Assembly: GCF_010731775.1 (NCBI RefSeq)
Contig: NZ_AP022590.1
Location: 5,270,001 to 5,334,000 of the forward strand
Reading direction: 5' to 3'
Length of the DNA stretch: 64,000 nt
From: Mycobacterium mantenii
GTDB lineage: Bacteria > Actinomycetota > Actinomycetes > Mycobacteriales > Mycobacteriaceae
Part shown: positions 4,304-46,264 of the stretch, piece by piece
Layout of the letters: the number at the start of each line of letters is the position of its first letter
Position numbering within the stretch: position 1 is the first letter of the stretch
The notes under the pieces: generated by a model
Seen by the model: only the letters and a program-made list of their open reading frames with translations
What the model was told of the DNA's origin: nothing
The model's database searches: none
Made by a program: the position numbers and the translations under genes

Positions 4304-4446
4304 ATCCGCAGGATTGCCCCGGCTGAAGGGTTTTTACTCGTATTCGAGTATTCGCACGCATGTAATTCAGTACTGCGCAGATTGCGTCTCGGACCGACGT
4401 TAAATCGGCAAACGGGCAGGTCGCGCGCCTATCGGGACGATTTATG

Positions 4447-6066
4447 TTATTCGCCGGCCGTTTCGCTTGCCGGCCTTTTCGGCAGAAACGACGCCGGAAT
4501 CACGGTGCACACCACCAGCACGACGGCAATCACGAAGACCGCGGCATAGGCGTGGGAAAGATCGTGCACCAGATTGCTGGAATATCCGGGAGCAAGTGAC
4601 TGCAGGGGGATCGCGGACGGGTTCACCGGCACGCCGTCGATCGCCGCCTTCTGATGCAGGGCGGCGAGCTTGTTTGCTGCACCGATGTTCGGGCTCCGGT
4701 TGAACTGGTTGGTCAGAATCATCGACATCAGCGCGGTTCCCATCGAGCCGCCCACCTGGTGGCTGACGCTCATCAGGGTCGTTCCCCGGGCGATCTGATG
4801 GGGCGCCAGCGCCTGCACCGATGCGACCGACAGCGGCATCATGGTGCAGCCCATGCCCAGGCCCATGATCGCCAGCCCGACCAGCAGCGTGGGCAGGTAG
4901 TTGGCCTGGGTGGCCACCCCGAAGGCGAAGGCGCTCAGGCCGGCGGTGATCAGCGCGATCCCGACCAGCACGATCTTGCCCGGGCCCTGCCTATCTACCA
5001 GCGGTCCGGTCAGCCGCATGGTCAGCATGGCGCCCAGTCCCTGAGGGATCATGTGCACGCCCGCCTGCATCGGCGTTTGGTGCAGCACCTGCTGGAAGTA
5101 GCTCGGGAGCAGCAGGCCGGCGCCGAAAAATGCGCCGGCGAAGACGAGCATCGTCACGTTGGCGTGGGTGAGCACGGGATTGCGGAACAGGCGCAGGTCG
5201 ATCAGGGGGTGATCGGCCCGGTGCCATGCGTGCGCGACGAAGCCCGCGATCAACGCCAGCCCGATCACCGCCGGTAGCACCACGTGGCGGTCGGCGACGG
5301 TGCCGCGGCCCGGGATGGACGACACCGCGAACAGGAACGTTGCCAGGCCCGGCGAGAGCAGCAGCACGCCGACGGCGTCGAAGGTTTCCGACCGGGCCGG
5401 GTGATCCCGGGTGAACACGATGGCGGCCAGCGCGATGGTCAGAAATCCGATCGGCACGTTGATCAGAAAGATCCACCGCCAGCTCGAGGCGTCGATCAGC
5501 CAGCCGCCCAGGATCGGCCCGCCGATCGGGGCGAGCAGCATCGGTATGCTCAGGATCGACATCAGGCGCCCGAGCCGTCTCGGGCCCGCTTCGCGGGTCA
5601 GGATCATGAATCCCAATGGCAGCAGCATGCCGCCACCGATTCCCTGTACCACGCGAAAACCGATGAGCTGCACGATGTTTGATGCGATCGCGCACAGCAG
5701 CGAGCCAAGCATGAACGCCACCACCGAACCCATGAAGAGCCGTTTGGTGCCGAACCGGTCGGCCGCCCACCCGGTTATCGGGATCACGGTCGCCAGGGCG
5801 AGCGTGTAGCCGGTCATCGTCCAGGCCACGACAGCCTGCGAGGACGCGAACTGATCGATGAAGGTGCGTTGCGCGACGCTGACCACCGTGACATCCAGGA
5901 TCGCCATCACCGTGGCCAAGATGCACACGCCGGAGATCCGCAACAGCGGGGCATCGAGTTTGTCGGGATATTCCCGTTCTTCGACGGCCGGCTGCCCGGG
6001 GCGGGCGTGGGGCAGCGGCGTTTTGGCCGCTGCGTACGAGGCCTCATCCATGGCGTTGCTTAGCAT
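4447..6066 (-). CDS. EmrB/QacA-type MFS multidrug exporter (copy 2)
   Basis: A second DHA2-family exporter, 539 residues from the chosen ATG, aligning along its whole length with the downstream copy (shared EYPDKLDA segment, GWAADRFGTKR motif A, GPIGGPILGGW motif C). The frame stays open upstream to 6588, but the ATG at 6066 reproduces the MLSxAM N-terminus of the paralogue, and the extra upstream sequence is arginine-rich and unlike coding sequence. A 143-bp gap separates the copies, so each could have its own promoter. Substrate unknown. Confidence 0.88.
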   Translation of the reverse strand: MLSNAMDEASYAAAKTPLPHARPGQPAVEEREYPDKLDAPLLRISGVCILATVMAILDVTVVSVAQRTFIDQFASSQAVVAWTMTGYTLALATVIPITGWAADRFGTKRLFMGSVVAFMLGSLLCAIASNIVQLIGFRVVQGIGGGMLLPLGFMILTREAGPRRLGRLMSILSIPMLLAPIGGPILGGWLIDASSWRWIFLINVPIGFLTIALAAIVFTRDHPARSETFDAVGVLLLSPGLATFLFAVSSIPGRGTVADRHVVLPAVIGLALIAGFVAHAWHRADHPLIDLRLFRNPVLTHANVTMLVFAGAFFGAGLLLPSYFQQVLHQTPMQAGVHMIPQGLGAMLTMRLTGPLVDRQGPGKIVLVGIALITAGLSAFAFGVATQANYLPTLLVGLAIMGLGMGCTMMPLSVASVQALAPHQIARGTTLMSVSHQVGGSMGTALMSMILTNQFNRSPNIGAANKLAALHQKAAIDGVPVNPSAIPLQSLAPGYSSNLVHDLSHAYAAVFVIAVVLVVCTVIPASFLPKRPASETAGE

Positions 6067-40234: not shown

Positions 40235-41122
40235 ATGGCCGGCCGGACGGGAGTGATTGTCACGCTGGACGGCGAAATACATTCGCCGGATGCGCCGCTG
40301 CTGCACGCCGACGACCTGGCGGCGGTCCGCGGCGACGGCGTCTTCGAGACGCTGTTGGTCCGCGACGGCCGGGCCTGTCTGATCGAGTCGCATCTGCAGC
40401 GGCTGACCCAGTCGTCCGCGATGACCGATCTGCCCGCGCCGGATCTGCCGCGCTGGCGAAGCGCGATCGAGGTAGCCACCCGACAGTGGTGCGCGGGCAA
40501 CGCCGACGAGGGCGCGATGCGGTTGATCTACAGCCGCGGCCGCGAGGGTGGTTCGGTGCCGACGGCCTACGTCATGGTCAACCCCGTTCCCGAACGGGTG
40601 ACGGCGGTCCGGCGTGGCGGGCTGGCGGCGATCACGCTCGACCGCGGGCTGCCCGCCACCGGTGTCGACGCGATGCCGTGGCTGTTGGCCGGCGCCAAGA
40701 CCCTGTCGTACGCGGTCAACATGGCCGCCCTGCGCCATGCCGCCCGCCGAGACGCCGGCGACGTGATCTTCGTCAGCACGGACGGCTACATCCTGGAAGG
40801 GCCCCGCTCGACCGTGGTGATCGCCACCGCCGCCGAGACTCCGGACGGTCAGCCGTGCCTGCTGACACCGCCGCCGTGGTACCCGATCCTGCGCGGCACC
40901 ACCCAGCAAGCCCTCTTCGAGGTGGCCAGGGACAAGGGGTACGACTGCGACTACCGGGCGCTGCGCGTCGCGGATCTGGATGCCGCCCAAGGTGTTTGGC
41001 TGATCTCCAGCATGACCTTGGCGGCCCGCGTGCACACACTCGACGGCCGCCCACTGCAAACGTCCCCGATGGCCGCGGAATTCGCCGAACTGATCGACGC
41101 CGCCATCGTCAGCGATCGCTGA
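40235..41122 (+). CDS. pabC: Aminodeoxychorismate lyase / class IV aminotransferase
   Basis: A 295-residue fold-type IV PLP enzyme (Rv0812). The PLP lysine is in AGAKTLSYAVN; other family blocks are HADDLAAVRGDGVFETLL, RLIYSRGR, and ISTDGYILEG-like VSTDGYILEGPRSTV. In folate synthesis PabC makes p-aminobenzoate from aminodeoxychorismate. Some relatives are branched-chain or D-amino-acid aminotransferases, so a small doubt remains. Two micro-ORFs and a hairpin follow on the same strand. Confidence 0.87.
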   Translation: MAGRTGVIVTLDGEIHSPDAPLLHADDLAAVRGDGVFETLLVRDGRACLIESHLQRLTQSSAMTDLPAPDLPRWRSAIEVATRQWCAGNADEGAMRLIYSRGREGGSVPTAYVMVNPVPERVTAVRRGGLAAITLDRGLPATGVDAMPWLLAGAKTLSYAVNMAALRHAARRDAGDVIFVSTDGYILEGPRSTVVIATAAETPDGQPCLLTPPPWYPILRGTTQQALFEVARDKGYDCDYRALRVADLDAAQGVWLISSMTLAARVHTLDGRPLQTSPMAAEFAELIDAAIVSDR

Positions 41123-41365: not shown

Positions 41366-42892
41366 TTACTGGTTCACCCTCGCGGCGATGTCCCCGGCGA
41401 TCTTGCCGGCCTGACCGGTGCCGGCGTCCGGGCCGCACACCAACAAGTCGACGACCACGTTGGACGCCGCGTGCAGCGCGTGATGGCAGACCCGGGTTCC
41501 GTCCGCTTGGGTTCGCTGCTGGTAGATCTTCGGCGGAGCTCCGGTGACGTCACCGAATGTCCAGCCATACGACTTGCCGTTGAAGCTCATCGTGATCGAC
41601 TGCCCCGCGCACGCCTTCCATTTGTCGACCGTCGCCTGCACGAACGCGGCGGCCTTCTCGGGCGACGAGAACGCCGCGACGGCTTCGTACACACGGTGCG
41701 GCGGGCTTTCGCCGGCGGTGTGCACGGCCTGCCCACTGACGGCGGTGTAGCCGTCGGCGTTCTGATAGTTCGAGCTTTCGATGGGCTCCCAGGCGTTTTT
41801 GCAGTTCGGGTTGGACAGCGTTGCCCGCAGGTTGCGCAGCTGTCCGGCCTTCTCGGAGACCACCAGGTCCTGGTCGCCGATGATGGGACCGATCTCGGCG
41901 GGCCCAAGCAGATAAGAGTCCAGCTTCGACGTATTAGATCCGTTGGTCGCCGTCGGCCCCGCGCCGGCGGCCGGCGCCGAATTCGAGCCCGCCTTGGGCG
42001 CTTTGGTCTTGCCGCCCTGCATCGCCAGCACGACGACGATCGCGATCACCGCGATCACGGCGACGGCGGTGCCGCCGATGACCAGCAGCCACTTGTTGGA
42101 TCCGCCGCCCGCCGCGGGTGGGACGGGGGCCTTGGTCGACGGTCCGCCGGCCGGTGCCGCGCCAGCCGGCGCCTTCGCGACGGTTGGCGTGGACTGTGTC
42201 GACGCAGCGGCCGCCGGGCTGCCCCCCGCGTTGTTCTTGGCCTCGATTTCGGCCAGCACGTTGTCGATTTCGGTTCGGGTGCGGTACGTGACGTCGTGGC
42301 GCAGGCGCAGCATGCGCAGCAGCTGGCCGATATCGCCGCGAGCGCTGGGGTCTTCGCCGTCCTCGTCGAGGCCCGACCGGAGTTCGATGAGCAGTTGTGT
42401 CTGCTGCTGGGGGCTCAGCTCCTTTTCGGCGAGGATGTTGCCCAGCCGGGTGATGTACCCGAACGGCACCGGCGGGTCTTCGGGCAGCGGGTCGGGCAAC
42501 GGCACCGGCTTGCCCTGCAGGGCGTGCACCGCGGTGACCAGTTGGATGCCGGCGTCGACGGTCGGCTCGCGGTAGTCGATGATCTGCAATGCGGCAAGGG
42601 GATTCACGCGCATGCTGTCGACGTCGCCGATGCGGACCGGAAGGATCGGCCGGTTCAGGGCCCGCGCGTAGCGCAACTCGGCTTGACTGGGTTTGGACTG
42701 CAGCCAGTTGTTCGACAGCGCGACGATGAACACGTCGCACGAGCGGATCTGCTCCAAGATCTTGTTCCACCACGATTCGCCGCCGCCGAGTTCCTGGTCG
42801 AACCAAACCTGCTGCTGTCCGCGCCGAAGGGCGCTCGTCAGGGCATCGACCGTCGCCCGGTCTTGGCTCGAGTAGCTGATGAACAGCGCCAT
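41366..42892 (-). CDS. TIR domain-transmembrane-PknH-sensor protein
   Basis: A 508-residue membrane protein with three parts. Residues 1-130 are a TIR domain (LFISYSSQDRATVDALTSAL; Glu72 in SQAELRYA at the position of the NAD-hydrolase glutamate). A Pro/Ala/Gly-rich linker follows, then one membrane helix at about 267-292 (WLLVIGGTAVAVIAVIAIVV). The C-terminal extracytoplasmic domain (about 315-508) resembles the PknH sensor domain, with four cysteines (NPNCKN, KACAG, RVCHH, LVCGP) able to form two disulfides. The ATG at 42892 follows AAGGAGA. It lies downstream of the RyR-domain membrane gene. It may sense envelope signals and respond with NAD cleavage. Confidence 0.85.
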   Translation of the reverse strand: MALFISYSSQDRATVDALTSALRRGQQQVWFDQELGGGESWWNKILEQIRSCDVFIVALSNNWLQSKPSQAELRYARALNRPILPVRIGDVDSMRVNPLAALQIIDYREPTVDAGIQLVTAVHALQGKPVPLPDPLPEDPPVPFGYITRLGNILAEKELSPQQQTQLLIELRSGLDEDGEDPSARGDIGQLLRMLRLRHDVTYRTRTEIDNVLAEIEAKNNAGGSPAAAASTQSTPTVAKAPAGAAPAGGPSTKAPVPPAAGGGSNKWLLVIGGTAVAVIAVIAIVVVLAMQGGKTKAPKAGSNSAPAAGAGPTATNGSNTSKLDSYLLGPAEIGPIIGDQDLVVSEKAGQLRNLRATLSNPNCKNAWEPIESSNYQNADGYTAVSGQAVHTAGESPPHRVYEAVAAFSSPEKAAAFVQATVDKWKACAGQSITMSFNGKSYGWTFGDVTGAPPKIYQQRTQADGTRVCHHALHAASNVVVDLLVCGPDAGTGQAGKIAGDIAARVNQ

Positions 42893-42967
42893 CGAAGTCT
42901 CCTTGGTGAGATGGAGCGAACTCACTCGGGCGAAAGCCCCGGATGCGGCGGCTATTGCACGTGCGCC

Positions 42968-42978
42968 GATACCGTATC
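42968..42978. promoter_or_regulatory. Palindrome GATAC-C-GTATC upstream of the TIR gene
   Basis: A perfect 5+1+5 palindrome in the 147-bp gap between the RyR-domain gene and the TIR gene, about 76 bp before the TIR start codon. It overlaps plausible -10 hexamers on the minus strand, so it may be an operator for separate control of the TIR gene. Confidence 0.35.
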
Positions 42979-43039
42979 AGTGTTGGGCCCTATCAGAAGG
43001 CGCAAATTCACTGCCATTTGGGTTGCTGGCGGTCGAAAC

Positions 43040-45415
43040 CTAACCGTCGGAGGCGTCGAGAACTCGGGCTTCTTCGGACGGGCGGACTTCGGCGTAGCGG
43101 CGCGCGAATTCCGCACCGGGGACCGGCCATTGCTCGCCCGCCCGCCCGCGTACCACCCAGTCGCCGTCGGCCGCGATCGTGGGTCCCTCGAGGGTGTCGA
43201 TGGTCTCGCCGGGCTGGGCCGGGCGGGCTTGCACCCGTCCCTTGCGTCGCCACCGGCCATCGCCGGCGGGTTCGTAGGTGTCGCGGAAGATGTCGTCGCG
43301 CACCGACCAGAGCTTGCCGTCTTCGGTGATCGCCCAATCGCCGGCCTCGGCGCGCATGGTGTGACCCGAATCCGACGTCCACGTCCAGCCGGCGCTGCGC
43401 TGCTCCGCGCTGACCGTCCCCACCCGGGAAAAGGATTGCCACAGTGGGCGTGAGCGAAAGCCCAGCTGCCGCAGGCTCCACAAGGTGCCGGCCAGACTGC
43501 GGACCGCGGCGTTGAGCAGATCCGGGTTGGTCTCGACCGTCGACCAGTCGACCAGTTTGTCGTGGATCTTGCGCGAGTCGTCGCGCGGCGAACCGTACTT
43601 CCAGCCGTTGCGGCGGTAGTAGCGACACCAGTCCTCGTGCTCCGCTTTGGCCATGCTCATCGCCGCGTCGTCATCGAAGCCCATCAACGCCAGCTGTTGC
43701 AACGGCGCCAATCCCGCCATGTCGCGTCCGGACAGCTGAGCCGGCGGACTGCCCCAGGTATTCCAGGTATGTCCGGCAATCTGTTCCACCATCCACAGCG
43801 CGTTGCGCACCTGTCGGCGGTTGGACCCGCGGTAGAACTCGTTGAGCTCGGCCCACGGCAGTGCGGCCGCCGACCGCGGCGCCGCCGGGTCGATCGTCGA
43901 GACGTAGCGCTCGTGGATCAGCCGTGCCGCGCGCTCCCAGGCGTCCTGTACCTGGCCCTCCTGGGTGTCGAGCACCAGCGAGTAGGACTGCAGCCGGCCG
44001 ACTACCCGGATCGAGTCGTCACTGATGCTGGTGTTGAGATCCGAAGCGTGGATGGGCATTTCGGGGAACCGGGCGGCAAGTCGGGCGGCCGTCGTCGCGG
44101 CGTGGGCGTCCACGAAGATCACCGCGCACGTGGCGGGGTCGGCCTCGCCGATCAACTTCAGCATGGCCGGTACGGTCGGCGCCTCCGCCACCGCGTCGAT
44201 GGCCGGTCCGTCCGACATGAATCCCGCCTGCTGCCGGTAGAACTCGTGATCGGCCAGGTAATCCTCGGCGTCGCGTTCGACGAGGGTGAGCGCGGGCAAC
44301 GGGACCGCGTCGGGTGGGGTGTAGAAGTCGCGCTCCAGGGCGCGCTGGGTCAGATTGGCGCACAGCGCAAGAGTCAATTGAGATGTGCCGCAGACAAATA
44401 CGCGCTGCGTTCGATGAGTCGCGCCGATGGCATCGAGGAGCCTGCCGGCGGTCACCTCGTATTTGCCGACGACGTCGGCCGCCCACCGGGTGTCGGATCC
44501 GCCGAACTGCTGGGCGCGCCACGCCTGAGCTAGCCACGGGTCGTCCATGCGCACGATGAGGGGCAACCGCCGCTTGTGGGCGACCTCGGCGAGCCGGTGG
44601 CTGATCAGGTCGAGCCACAGCAGGTTGATCGCCGGGTCGGGTGCCATCAGGTAAAGACGGGAAAGGTTGCGCCACAGCCGAAGTGAAACCAGCGTGGACG
44701 GGGTGTTGAAGTCCACCAACACCACCCGGGCACCCTGCCTGCGGGCCCGTGCCACCCGGTCGTCGCTGGCGCCGGTGATGACGACCAGCGTGGTGCGGCG
44801 GTCCAGGGTCCGTGCGACCGCGCTGATCATCGATTGGGTGTCAGCGTCGACACCGACGATGGCCGTGACGGAGTCGGCCAGGTTGGCTCGCAGGCGATCC
44901 ACCTGGGACCGGAACACGCCGACGACCACGCCGCCCAGTCCGGTGAAAATCGCCGCCAGCGCTGCGATCCGGGCCAGTTCGAGCCCGACCGGCGTGGGGT
45001 TGGGGCAGGTTCGCCCGCTCACCGAGAAGTCGCCGGTGCCGCCCTTGACCAGACTGGCCGTCGCCATCAGCGGGGTGAAGAAGGCCGGATGGTTGGCGTC
45101 GTGGCATCCCCAATAGGAGGTGAGGCCCAGCACCGCGCCCATGCTGACGAGCGCAGCGATCACGGTGAACGAAACCCCCACCACCCGGTGGCTGCTGTCC
45201 GAGCGGAAGGTCAGCACGCAGGCCGCGATCAGCACGGTGACCACGATCGCCAGTGTCGGCATCGATCCCGGCCGGCCGAACCAATTGAGCGACGGCGGCA
45301 GCGCGTCGAGGACCGCGGGCTGCAAATCCAGGACGGCCAGATAAAGGATCAGCAGCAGGCCGGTCGCGCTGACCGCCCGGTGCAGAAGGCGCGAGGGTGA
45401 CCGCGTGGGACGCAT
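43040..45415 (-). CDS. Membrane protein with Rossmann-like, RyR and PGDYG-like domains
   Basis: A 791-residue protein from the ATG at 45415, which follows GGGAGG. About four membrane helices lie in residues 12-170. Two Rossmann-like segments follow (TLVVITGASDDRVARAR near 210; RVFVCGTSQLTLALC near 350), resembling TrkA-N/NAD-binding domains. Around 590-640 is a ryanodine-receptor (RyR) repeat-like domain (EHEDWCRYYRRNGWKYG, then RDDSRKIHDKLVDW). The C-terminus (about 690-780) has paired GDW motifs like PGDYG modules. Bacterial RyR domains are predicted nucleotide-ligand sensors in conflict systems. It is placed next to the TIR protein. Confidence 0.8.
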   Translation of the reverse strand: MRPTRSPSRLLHRAVSATGLLLILYLAVLDLQPAVLDALPPSLNWFGRPGSMPTLAIVVTVLIAACVLTFRSDSSHRVVGVSFTVIAALVSMGAVLGLTSYWGCHDANHPAFFTPLMATASLVKGGTGDFSVSGRTCPNPTPVGLELARIAALAAIFTGLGGVVVGVFRSQVDRLRANLADSVTAIVGVDADTQSMISAVARTLDRRTTLVVITGASDDRVARARRQGARVVLVDFNTPSTLVSLRLWRNLSRLYLMAPDPAINLLWLDLISHRLAEVAHKRRLPLIVRMDDPWLAQAWRAQQFGGSDTRWAADVVGKYEVTAGRLLDAIGATHRTQRVFVCGTSQLTLALCANLTQRALERDFYTPPDAVPLPALTLVERDAEDYLADHEFYRQQAGFMSDGPAIDAVAEAPTVPAMLKLIGEADPATCAVIFVDAHAATTAARLAARFPEMPIHASDLNTSISDDSIRVVGRLQSYSLVLDTQEGQVQDAWERAARLIHERYVSTIDPAAPRSAAALPWAELNEFYRGSNRRQVRNALWMVEQIAGHTWNTWGSPPAQLSGRDMAGLAPLQQLALMGFDDDAAMSMAKAEHEDWCRYYRRNGWKYGSPRDDSRKIHDKLVDWSTVETNPDLLNAAVRSLAGTLWSLRQLGFRSRPLWQSFSRVGTVSAEQRSAGWTWTSDSGHTMRAEAGDWAITEDGKLWSVRDDIFRDTYEPAGDGRWRRKGRVQARPAQPGETIDTLEGPTIAADGDWVVRGRAGEQWPVPGAEFARRYAEVRPSEEARVLDASDG

Positions 45416-45506
45416 CCGACCGACCTCCCTTCCCGGGCATATCGTCGACCATCGGACGCTCGGACGTCGAACAGTACACGCAGAAAAGTCGGCCGCGGGC
45501 CGGTTG

Positions 45507-46169
45507 CTAACCGGCGAACCGGGACAGCCGCGCCGATAGATGGGGGACCAGACCGCCGTCGGCGTCCACGCGCTCCTCGACGTAGGCCAGATCGCCGCCT
45601 TCGACGATGCCGTAGAGGCGTTTGGCGCCGCCGACCAGCACACCCGACCTACTGCGGGCCAGCGCATCGGTGACCAGCTCCCATGACGACTGGGTCAGAG
45701 GGCGGCCGTAGAACAGTTCGACGTAGCCCGCCGAATGTGCCAACAGCAGTTCGATCGCGTTGGATTCGCCGGGGTCGTCCGGATCGTTGACGAAGCGCCA
45801 GAAACCGCTCTCGCGCAAGCCCCGCTCTTCGTAGTCGCCCTCCTCGCTGAGCCGCCAGGAGCGGGCTTCCCAGTTCAGGTAGTCGCCGCCGTCGTGCGAG
45901 ACCACGATCTGCTGGCCGAACCGGTAGTCCCCGTCATGTCCACGGCCCTCGCCTTCGCCGCGCCAGACGCCGACCAGCGGCAGCAGCGCCAGCAAGGTAT
46001 CGCTCAGATCGGCGCCCTCGCGCAGGTTGGCGGTGTCGGCGGGCAAGGGCAGGTCATCGTAGGAGGGGACGTTGCGCCCGGCGGTCAGCTTGGCGCGTTC
46101 AGCGGCGGCGGCCACCGCCCGGTCGCCGGAGCTAGCGGAGCTCAATGGGTCGTCGCCGGAGTGGGTCAC
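45507..46169 (-). CDS. Nitrobindin-like heme/fatty-acid-binding barrel protein (Rv0813c-like)
   Basis: A 220-residue beta-barrel of the nitrobindin/FABP-like family. The signature [11 protein letters not shown] lies near residue 60, and the C-terminal part has the [18 protein letters not shown] strand region with conserved histidine-containing surroundings. Relatives bind heme and act on nitric oxide or peroxynitrite. The GTG at 46169 is in a GTGA overlap with the stop of a tiny membrane protein, so the two are coupled. It is the last gene of the sulfur cluster. Confidence 0.83.
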
Positions 46170-46264
46170 GACTCGTCGGTGATGAGCCGGTAGAGGGTGT
46201 ACAGGGCGAACCATGAGATCACCACGACCGACACCACCAGCATGATTTCGAAGAACAACACCAC
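46166..46264 (-). CDS. Tiny single-helix membrane protein
   Basis: A 32-residue frame beginning GTG GTG ([19 protein letters not shown], then [13 protein letters not shown]). It is almost entirely one hydrophobic helix with a polar, charged C-terminus, typical of small membrane proteins. The stop overlaps the GTG of the nitrobindin gene (GTGA). It starts 51 bp after sseC. No ribosome-binding site is obvious, so the start may be at either GTG. Partner and function unknown. Confidence 0.7.

Follow-up and report, generated by a model that had tools for sequence, protein, structure and literature searches.

A conserved mycobacterial gene pair joins a receptor-like TIR protein to a RyR-domain membrane protein with a predicted RCK fold

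In Thoeris the gene for a TIR protein, ThsB, adjoins that of a second protein, ThsA, which has a nucleotide-binding domain, and one effector works with several TIR sensors. A gene pair of similar composition was found in Mycobacterium mantenii within a stretch of 64,000 nucleotides (contig NZ_AP022590.1, positions 5,270,001 to 5,334,000; the window, to which coordinates refer). The downstream gene (41366..42925, minus strand) encodes a membrane-anchored TIR protein with a PknH_C-type domain, and the upstream gene (43040..45415, minus strand) encodes a membrane protein that combines a predicted tandem RCK fold with a RyR domain and a PGDYG-type tail; we refer to the products as the TIR protein and the RyR protein. 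Among the titles and abstract openings of the open-licence PubMed Central (PMC) literature, no prior description of a bacterial TIR and RyR gene pair was found.

The locus departs from Thoeris in both of its members. The partner is a RyR-bearing RCK membrane protein that none of the described ThsA models in PADLOC matches, and the TIR protein is anchored in the membrane and carries PknH_C. Searches of NCBIfam and PADLOC with the TIR protein returned only weak matches at the level of the TIR domain, those to ThsB included. In our working model the pair would operate like Thoeris; we do not class it as Thoeris, since its partner matched none of the described effector families when these were tested, and since the signal is inferred.

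The RCK-gated channels CASTOR/DMI1, Slo1/BK, GsuK and MthK share with the RyR protein a tandem RCK fold, which in the latter follows a putatively pore-like last pair of transmembrane segments, and CASTOR, in the excerpt of its description used here (PMC6697748), likewise has four predicted transmembrane segments and lacks TVGYG. Unlike these channels, the RyR protein adds a RyR domain, a PGDYG tail and linkage to TIR genes, and its conductance is only putative. Its RyR domain belongs to the same family (PF02026) as RyDEP and the RyR Repeat12 domains, with the same His-Trp-His contact residues; in contrast to RyDEP, however, it is part of a host membrane protein rather than of a free phage protein, and Asp appears not to be conserved at the catalytic position. 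The TIR protein follows the order of the PknH-type receptor kinases (signalling domain, one transmembrane helix, PknH_C), with a TIR domain in place of the Ser/Thr kinase.

Linkage of the two genes and exchange of TIR partners

The genes were followed through genome searches of the window's genus, family and class, one scan of related loci, and phage and plasmid searches. The genus survey comprised 198 genomes (taken, from named relatives, to be Mycobacterium in the broad sense of GTDB), and the RyR protein was present in 72. Among the matches listed, 38 of these carry it at the present site, between a pabC-type and an Rv0813c-type gene (36 recognized by the Rv0813c-type gene and two by pabC on the same contig), and a TIR_2 match lies beside the RyR gene in 37 of the 38; the lone genome without one, G735, holds a broken copy. 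The remaining 34 genomes, again among the matches listed, carry the RyR protein elsewhere. Thirty-two such loci were fetched, from 31 of the 34 genomes (three with partial or broken matches were left out) together with a second copy in G753. A TIR gene lay inside the fetched flank of ~8 kb at 27 of the 32, with one locus (L193) set aside as unclear, compared with a chance expectation of ~0.005 TIR per locus derived from the TIR counts of 12 genus genomes with a RyR match. One further locus with a TIR gene (L077 in G291) fell outside the survey and was left out of the count. Our own TIR profile is partly circular, having been built from ten TIRs of which nine came out of RyR loci; Pfam TIR_2 bears out 26 of the 27 TIR-bearing loci among the matches listed, and L191 was recognized by our own profile alone.

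At the level of whole genomes, TIR_2 was found in 69 of the 72 that have the RyR protein, against 31 of the 126 that lack it, among the matches listed (Fisher p 8e-25, not corrected for kinship). A set of named species from the related-loci scan agrees: of 51 loci, 45 occupy the present site. A TIR gene is visible at 44 of the 45, in L072 only as broken pieces, and L073, the remaining locus, is cut by a contig end. Away from the present site the TIR and RyR genes frequently diverge, converge or lie kilobases from each other, and in the class search four of the 20 loci fetched around RyR-domain matches hold a TIR.

The TIR partners are exchangeable and do not belong to one family. PknH_C-bearing partners occur at the present site and at L074, L168-L170, L172, L188 and L189, and all eight of the long TIR partners scanned contain nSTAND1 and WD40. 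Others carry WD40 alone, LRR (L081, outside the genus) or DeoRC (L190), or have little besides the TIR (L155, outside the family, and L192). When placed on a tree built from 45 RyR proteins, the label given to the partner, with 'none' counted as a label, changes at least 16 times; the STAND-WD40 label stands on 14 rows (eight scanned with Pfam, six assigned by length and TIR similarity) and the WD40 label on six (four scanned with Pfam). In Rhodococcus qingshengii a copy lies on a plasmid (L207), and two genes annotated as TIR and one DUF4062 gene are located within 8 kb of it. Because the RyR protein is constant while the sensor-TIR proteins vary, the simplest reading is that many sensor-TIRs would feed one RyR membrane protein, an effector common to them all that responds to a diffusible product of the TIRs.

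An earlier reading of the window from its letters alone (the sequence-only reading) had proposed that the two genes function together, and would have given this up if their adjacency were not conserved in other genomes. The survey of adjacency did not refute it. The functional pairing and the domain assignments are well supported, a TIR gene being found close to that for the RyR protein at many further sites, where the TIRs differ; the channel-like layout with a tandem RCK, and the exchange of TIR proteins, had escaped it.

Several loci showed other arrangements. The Rhodococcus plasmid is 523 kb long and typed mobilizable, and its RyR protein is surrounded by genes for TIR, WD40 and DUF4062. 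In another family of the order, a 100-residue RyR open reading frame adjoins a 748-residue TIR protein (L157 in G390), and in L161 (G167) a 641-residue RyR protein without the PGDYG tail adjoins a TIR protein of 1404 residues. Genome G786, an assembly with 7% contamination, has a TIR match between the pabC-type and Rv0813c-type genes (G786:C9:3730-4047) with no RyR match on that contig, and its RyR protein is on another contig. A patatin-like phospholipase gene lies between the RyR and TIR genes in L075 (4126-5160, by Pfam) and in L078 (6217-7359, by look only). A second, shorter RCK-RyR gene adjoins the full RyR protein at L167:7416-9155 (= L057:412-2151), on a 9.6-kb contig without a TIR.

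Domain organization of the two proteins

The open reading frames were found on the minus strand at 41366-42925 and 43040-45667, as the sequence-only reading had placed them, and the layout it gave (adjoining same-strand genes between a pabC-type and an Rv0813c-type gene) holds. The downstream frame gives 519 residues from a GTG at 42925; the conserved ATG at 42892 is more likely the start, giving 508. Pfam identified TIR_2 (E 2.5e-22) and PknH_C (E 8.9e-40) in its product, bearing out the proposed union of a TIR domain with a PknH-like sensor, and no kinase family at E 0.1. The TIR domain (42560..42883, minus strand), taken as cytosolic, contains Glu72 (numbered from MALF), which had been suggested to occupy the NADase position; all 27 of the 27 orthologues aligned have it, and by motif position it is probably the catalytic glutamate. 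Behind the TIR lie a conserved helical domain delimited by the alignment and by model helices (residues 129-222; 42227..42508, minus strand), a variable linker, and a single membrane helix read by eye (approximately residues 268-290; 42023..42091, minus strand). The PknH_C-type domain (41378..41932, minus strand), taken as outside, matches the Ser/Thr kinase structure 4esq (E 3e-32) and the envelope protein TiME (7cu8, 7cu9), and the four cysteines of this cysteine-bearing domain are likewise invariant in 27 of 27. The model of the TIR protein, with a predicted local distance difference test (pLDDT) score of 62.6 and less than 50 for the TIR part, was too poor for a fold search, and only the order of strands and helices was taken from it.

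The upstream frame extends to 45667, and the alignment of relatives places the conserved start at 45415, giving a product of 791 residues. Pfam recovered RyR (E 1.1e-7) and PGDYG (E 1.6e-6), confirming the RyR-like domain and PGDYG-like end that had been recognized by eye; the TrkA_N assignment fared less well, with a weak match (E 0.06). Model (mean pLDDT 66.8) and alignment predict four membrane helices (residues 9-31, 52-71, 77-104 and 142-179; 44879..45391, minus strand), the third and fourth of which are separated by a short helix (113-123) flanked by conserved Cys104 and Cys137. These are followed in the model by two Rossmann units (182-330 and 338-458; 44042..44872, minus strand), for which a fold search returned RCK gating rings. 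The protein as modelled thus has a tandem RCK gating-ring fold, in agreement with the 'about four' helices and two Rossmann-like segments of the sequence-only reading. Of the folds assigned there, that of the RyR/RCK protein is now backed by the model and its fold matches, and that of the TIR domain by Pfam. Weak matches to nucleoside diphosphate kinase and PALP were judged chance, given the RCK fold.

The structure alignments to GsuK and MthK extend into the putative pore part at a root-mean-square deviation >10, and in the pore-like loop 44 of 45 relatives retain G125. The RyR protein appears channel-like in layout and may form an open pore. Identity as a potassium channel by filter motif was considered and rejected, TVGYG being absent. 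The tail is a tandem beta domain of PGDYG type (residues 660-776; 43088..43438, minus strand), delimited by Pfam and the model. At other loci a PGDYG-type tail is a separate small open reading frame near the RyR gene (L077, L186, L187 and L191), lying past the TIR gene in L186 and L187. PGDYG-type domains without RyR or RCK occur in L083 and L084, that of L083 beside a TIR gene and among five TIR_2 matches within ~21 kb.

The RyR domain (43526..43672, minus strand) scores 32.5 bits against the gathering score of 27.4 for PF02026. Residues H593, W596 and H618 are spaced as H75, W78 and H100 of RyDEP and are kept in 43, 45 and 45 of 45 relatives. The stretch aligned by phmmer to 35tm_A, which we take to be RyDEP, puts the three at 76, 79 and 101 if it is free of gaps. 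At the spacing of the RyDEP catalytic Asp117 the window protein has Asn and 12 of the 45 relatives have Asp, in a loop whose alignment is unsure; this pattern would suit sensing or binding better than cleavage. A preprint of May 2026 reports, in the excerpt used here, that RyDEP cleaves 2'/3' cyclic ADP-ribose (2'/3'cADPR), that RyR-domain homologues bind it and that phage RyR-family proteins act on Thoeris signals (PMC13232231). A phage search with the RyR domain alone gave seven weak records, none of them from a mycobacteriophage, and did not recover RyDEP itself. In L078 a free-standing RyR-domain open reading frame of 160 residues (4351-4833) lies beside the RyR membrane protein.

Selection and loss at the site

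Ratios of nonsynonymous to synonymous substitution rates (dN/dS) were taken as medians over the 45 pairs formed by the first ten rows of each alignment. For the TIR protein they were 0.09 in the TIR, 0.12 in the helical domain, 0.33 in PknH_C and 0.46 in the linker and membrane helix, and for the RyR protein 0.08 in the RyR domain, 0.13 in the RCKs and 0.22 in the membrane part. Selection on the pair is purifying. Because of this, and because its position is conserved across many named species and survey genomes, the pair is a real, conserved two-gene module and not a chance neighbourhood.

The site is marked by the Rv0813c-type gene (45507..46214, minus strand; THAP4_heme-bd, E 7.9e-39) and by a gene on the plus strand (40235..41122) that we take to be pabC, following the sequence-only reading; both lie outside the system. 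The pair is missing from seven close relatives that were chosen for their short gap at the site, and the flanks of the empty site align to within ~40 bases of both gene ends. Four of the short gaps are clean and three, at L198, L199 and L201 (G701, G772 and G745), hold pieces matching the end of the TIR gene (E 6e-12, 2e-6 and a weak 9e-4, that of L201 being the weak piece). Because these pieces remain, the three sites are probably deletion scars; origin of the site through a mobile element was considered, and loss by deletion is preferred for them. Two sites with longer gaps (L202 and L203) gave matches to the flanks only, and L204-L206 gave none when run against our own profiles only.

The TIR gene is broken, at differing places, in L054, L055, L060, L072 and L085 (M. 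genavense, M. asiaticum DSM 44297, M. sherrisii, M. tilburgii and one more species), and the RyR gene is also broken in L054, L060 and L072; these are draft assemblies, and sequencing errors could account for some of the breaks. A role in defence is in keeping with the patchy presence, the joint absence and the fast evolution of the outside domain, which fit a housekeeping stress sensor less well; this fit does not amount to proof.

A model of the pair and its alternatives

The computed features (domains, tandem RCK fold, linkage, exchange of TIR partners and pocket residues) are best explained by a single signalling module in which a sensor-TIR would pass a messenger to a RyR-RCK channel-like effector, likely against phage, an explanation to which we give about even chances. 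According to this model, the TIR protein would be a single-pass membrane sensor whose outside PknH_C domain detects the trigger, a task that STAND-WD40, WD40 or another partner domain would take over at other loci. Detection would cluster the cytosolic TIR domains, which would convert nicotinamide adenine dinucleotide (NAD) to a messenger for which an isomer of cyclic ADP-ribose is the most likely candidate. By binding to the RyR domain of the RCK-gated partner, probably a tetramer, this messenger would change the partner's pore such that ion flow or depolarization stops the growth of the infected or stressed cell. That the sensor answers through NAD or a nucleotide, as the sequence-only reading had supposed, is the best reading of the pair at present, and it is helped by the binding of 2'/3'cADPR to RyR-domain proteins (PMC13232231, excerpt). 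The more specific pathway, in which TIR receptors with interchangeable sensors use a cyclic ADP-ribose isomer and the RyR domain to open an RCK-gated channel, as a new effector class of TIR immunity, is advanced tentatively, at somewhat less than even chances.

Several observations weigh against this explanation. A neighbouring TIR gene is not a requirement for RyR and RyR-RCK proteins, because none of 15 RyR-domain loci in family f20 (which we presume to be streptomycetes) holds a TIR gene within the fetched flanks, in genomes with 6 to 43 TIR_2 matches each, one of which lies ~12 kb off, beyond the flank. Our own profile recognized an RCK-like part in seven of these 15 proteins, and the PGDYG tail was found in none of them. 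Within the genus, four of the 32 loci away from the present site have no TIR in reach, two of them on contigs cut short. The membrane part of the RyR protein is poorly modelled (block pLDDT 41-70), its pore-like loop reads KGGTGDF rather than TVGYG, and D129 of that loop is not conserved (Asp in 20 of 45). The position equivalent to Asp117 is mostly not Asp, leaving several ligands compatible, and the RyR protein matches none of the PADLOC families at E 0.1 (library of 2023).

The alternative that survives best is a housekeeping module for envelope or ion stress, in which PknH_C reads the envelope and the TIR product, or direct contact, tunes an RCK-regulated channel. The occurrence of PknH_C in both 4esq and TiME, purifying selection at a fixed chromosomal site in many species, and the frequency of RCK domains in ligand-gated K+ channels (PMC6697748, excerpt) all speak for it. 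We nevertheless consider it unlikely, in view of the patchy presence, joint absence and broken copies among relatives and of the plasmid copy with two TIR genes nearby. STAND-WD40, WD40 and LRR, domains associated with conflict systems, are moreover found in other TIR partners. Less likely still is the reverse order of signalling, with the RyR-RCK protein detecting ions, membrane potential or a nucleotide and switching on the TIR by contact, so that NAD depletion kills the cell. TIR NADases are known in defence (SpbK and Cat1, from excerpts of the literature) and the genes are neighbouring and co-oriented at the present site; however, their frequent divergent, convergent or distant placement elsewhere gives no sign of a fixed complex, and variable extra domains on the TIR proteins beside a constant RyR protein indicate many sensors and one effector.

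A role as an off-switch, the RyR protein binding or hydrolysing the TIR signal as phage RyDEP does and thereby limiting self-harm, would draw on the cleavage and binding of 2'/3'cADPR by RyDEP and its homologues (PMC13232231, excerpt) and on the common His-Trp-His pocket. We judge it improbable, since the catalytic position is Asp in only 12 of 45, the four-helix membrane part and tandem RCK would be superfluous for such a role, and no other constant partner was noticed in the loci, whose neighbours were not surveyed in full. Two unrelated genes sharing an insertion site could be co-inherited neighbours if the present site stood alone, and this is very improbable given the TIR gene at 27 of 32 loci elsewhere, with differing TIR architectures.

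If the proposed signalling module is correct, a RyR domain that receives a TIR signal on behalf of an RCK channel scaffold would bring an ion-channel effector class to TIR immunity; the Thoeris effectors described so far are not known to work in this way. The module would also be a bacterial parallel of cyclic ADP-ribose acting on ryanodine receptors, and a small bacterial protein would make it testable whether RyR repeat domains sense cyclic ADP-ribose signals. It would further be a mycobacterial system at which phage RyDEP could be aimed; according to the excerpt used here, RyDEP was tested against Bacillus Thoeris, and tools to characterize Thoeris easily in mycobacteria are lacking (PMC13232231). 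The pair also shows TIR proteins built like receptor kinases, with a presumed outside sensor domain.

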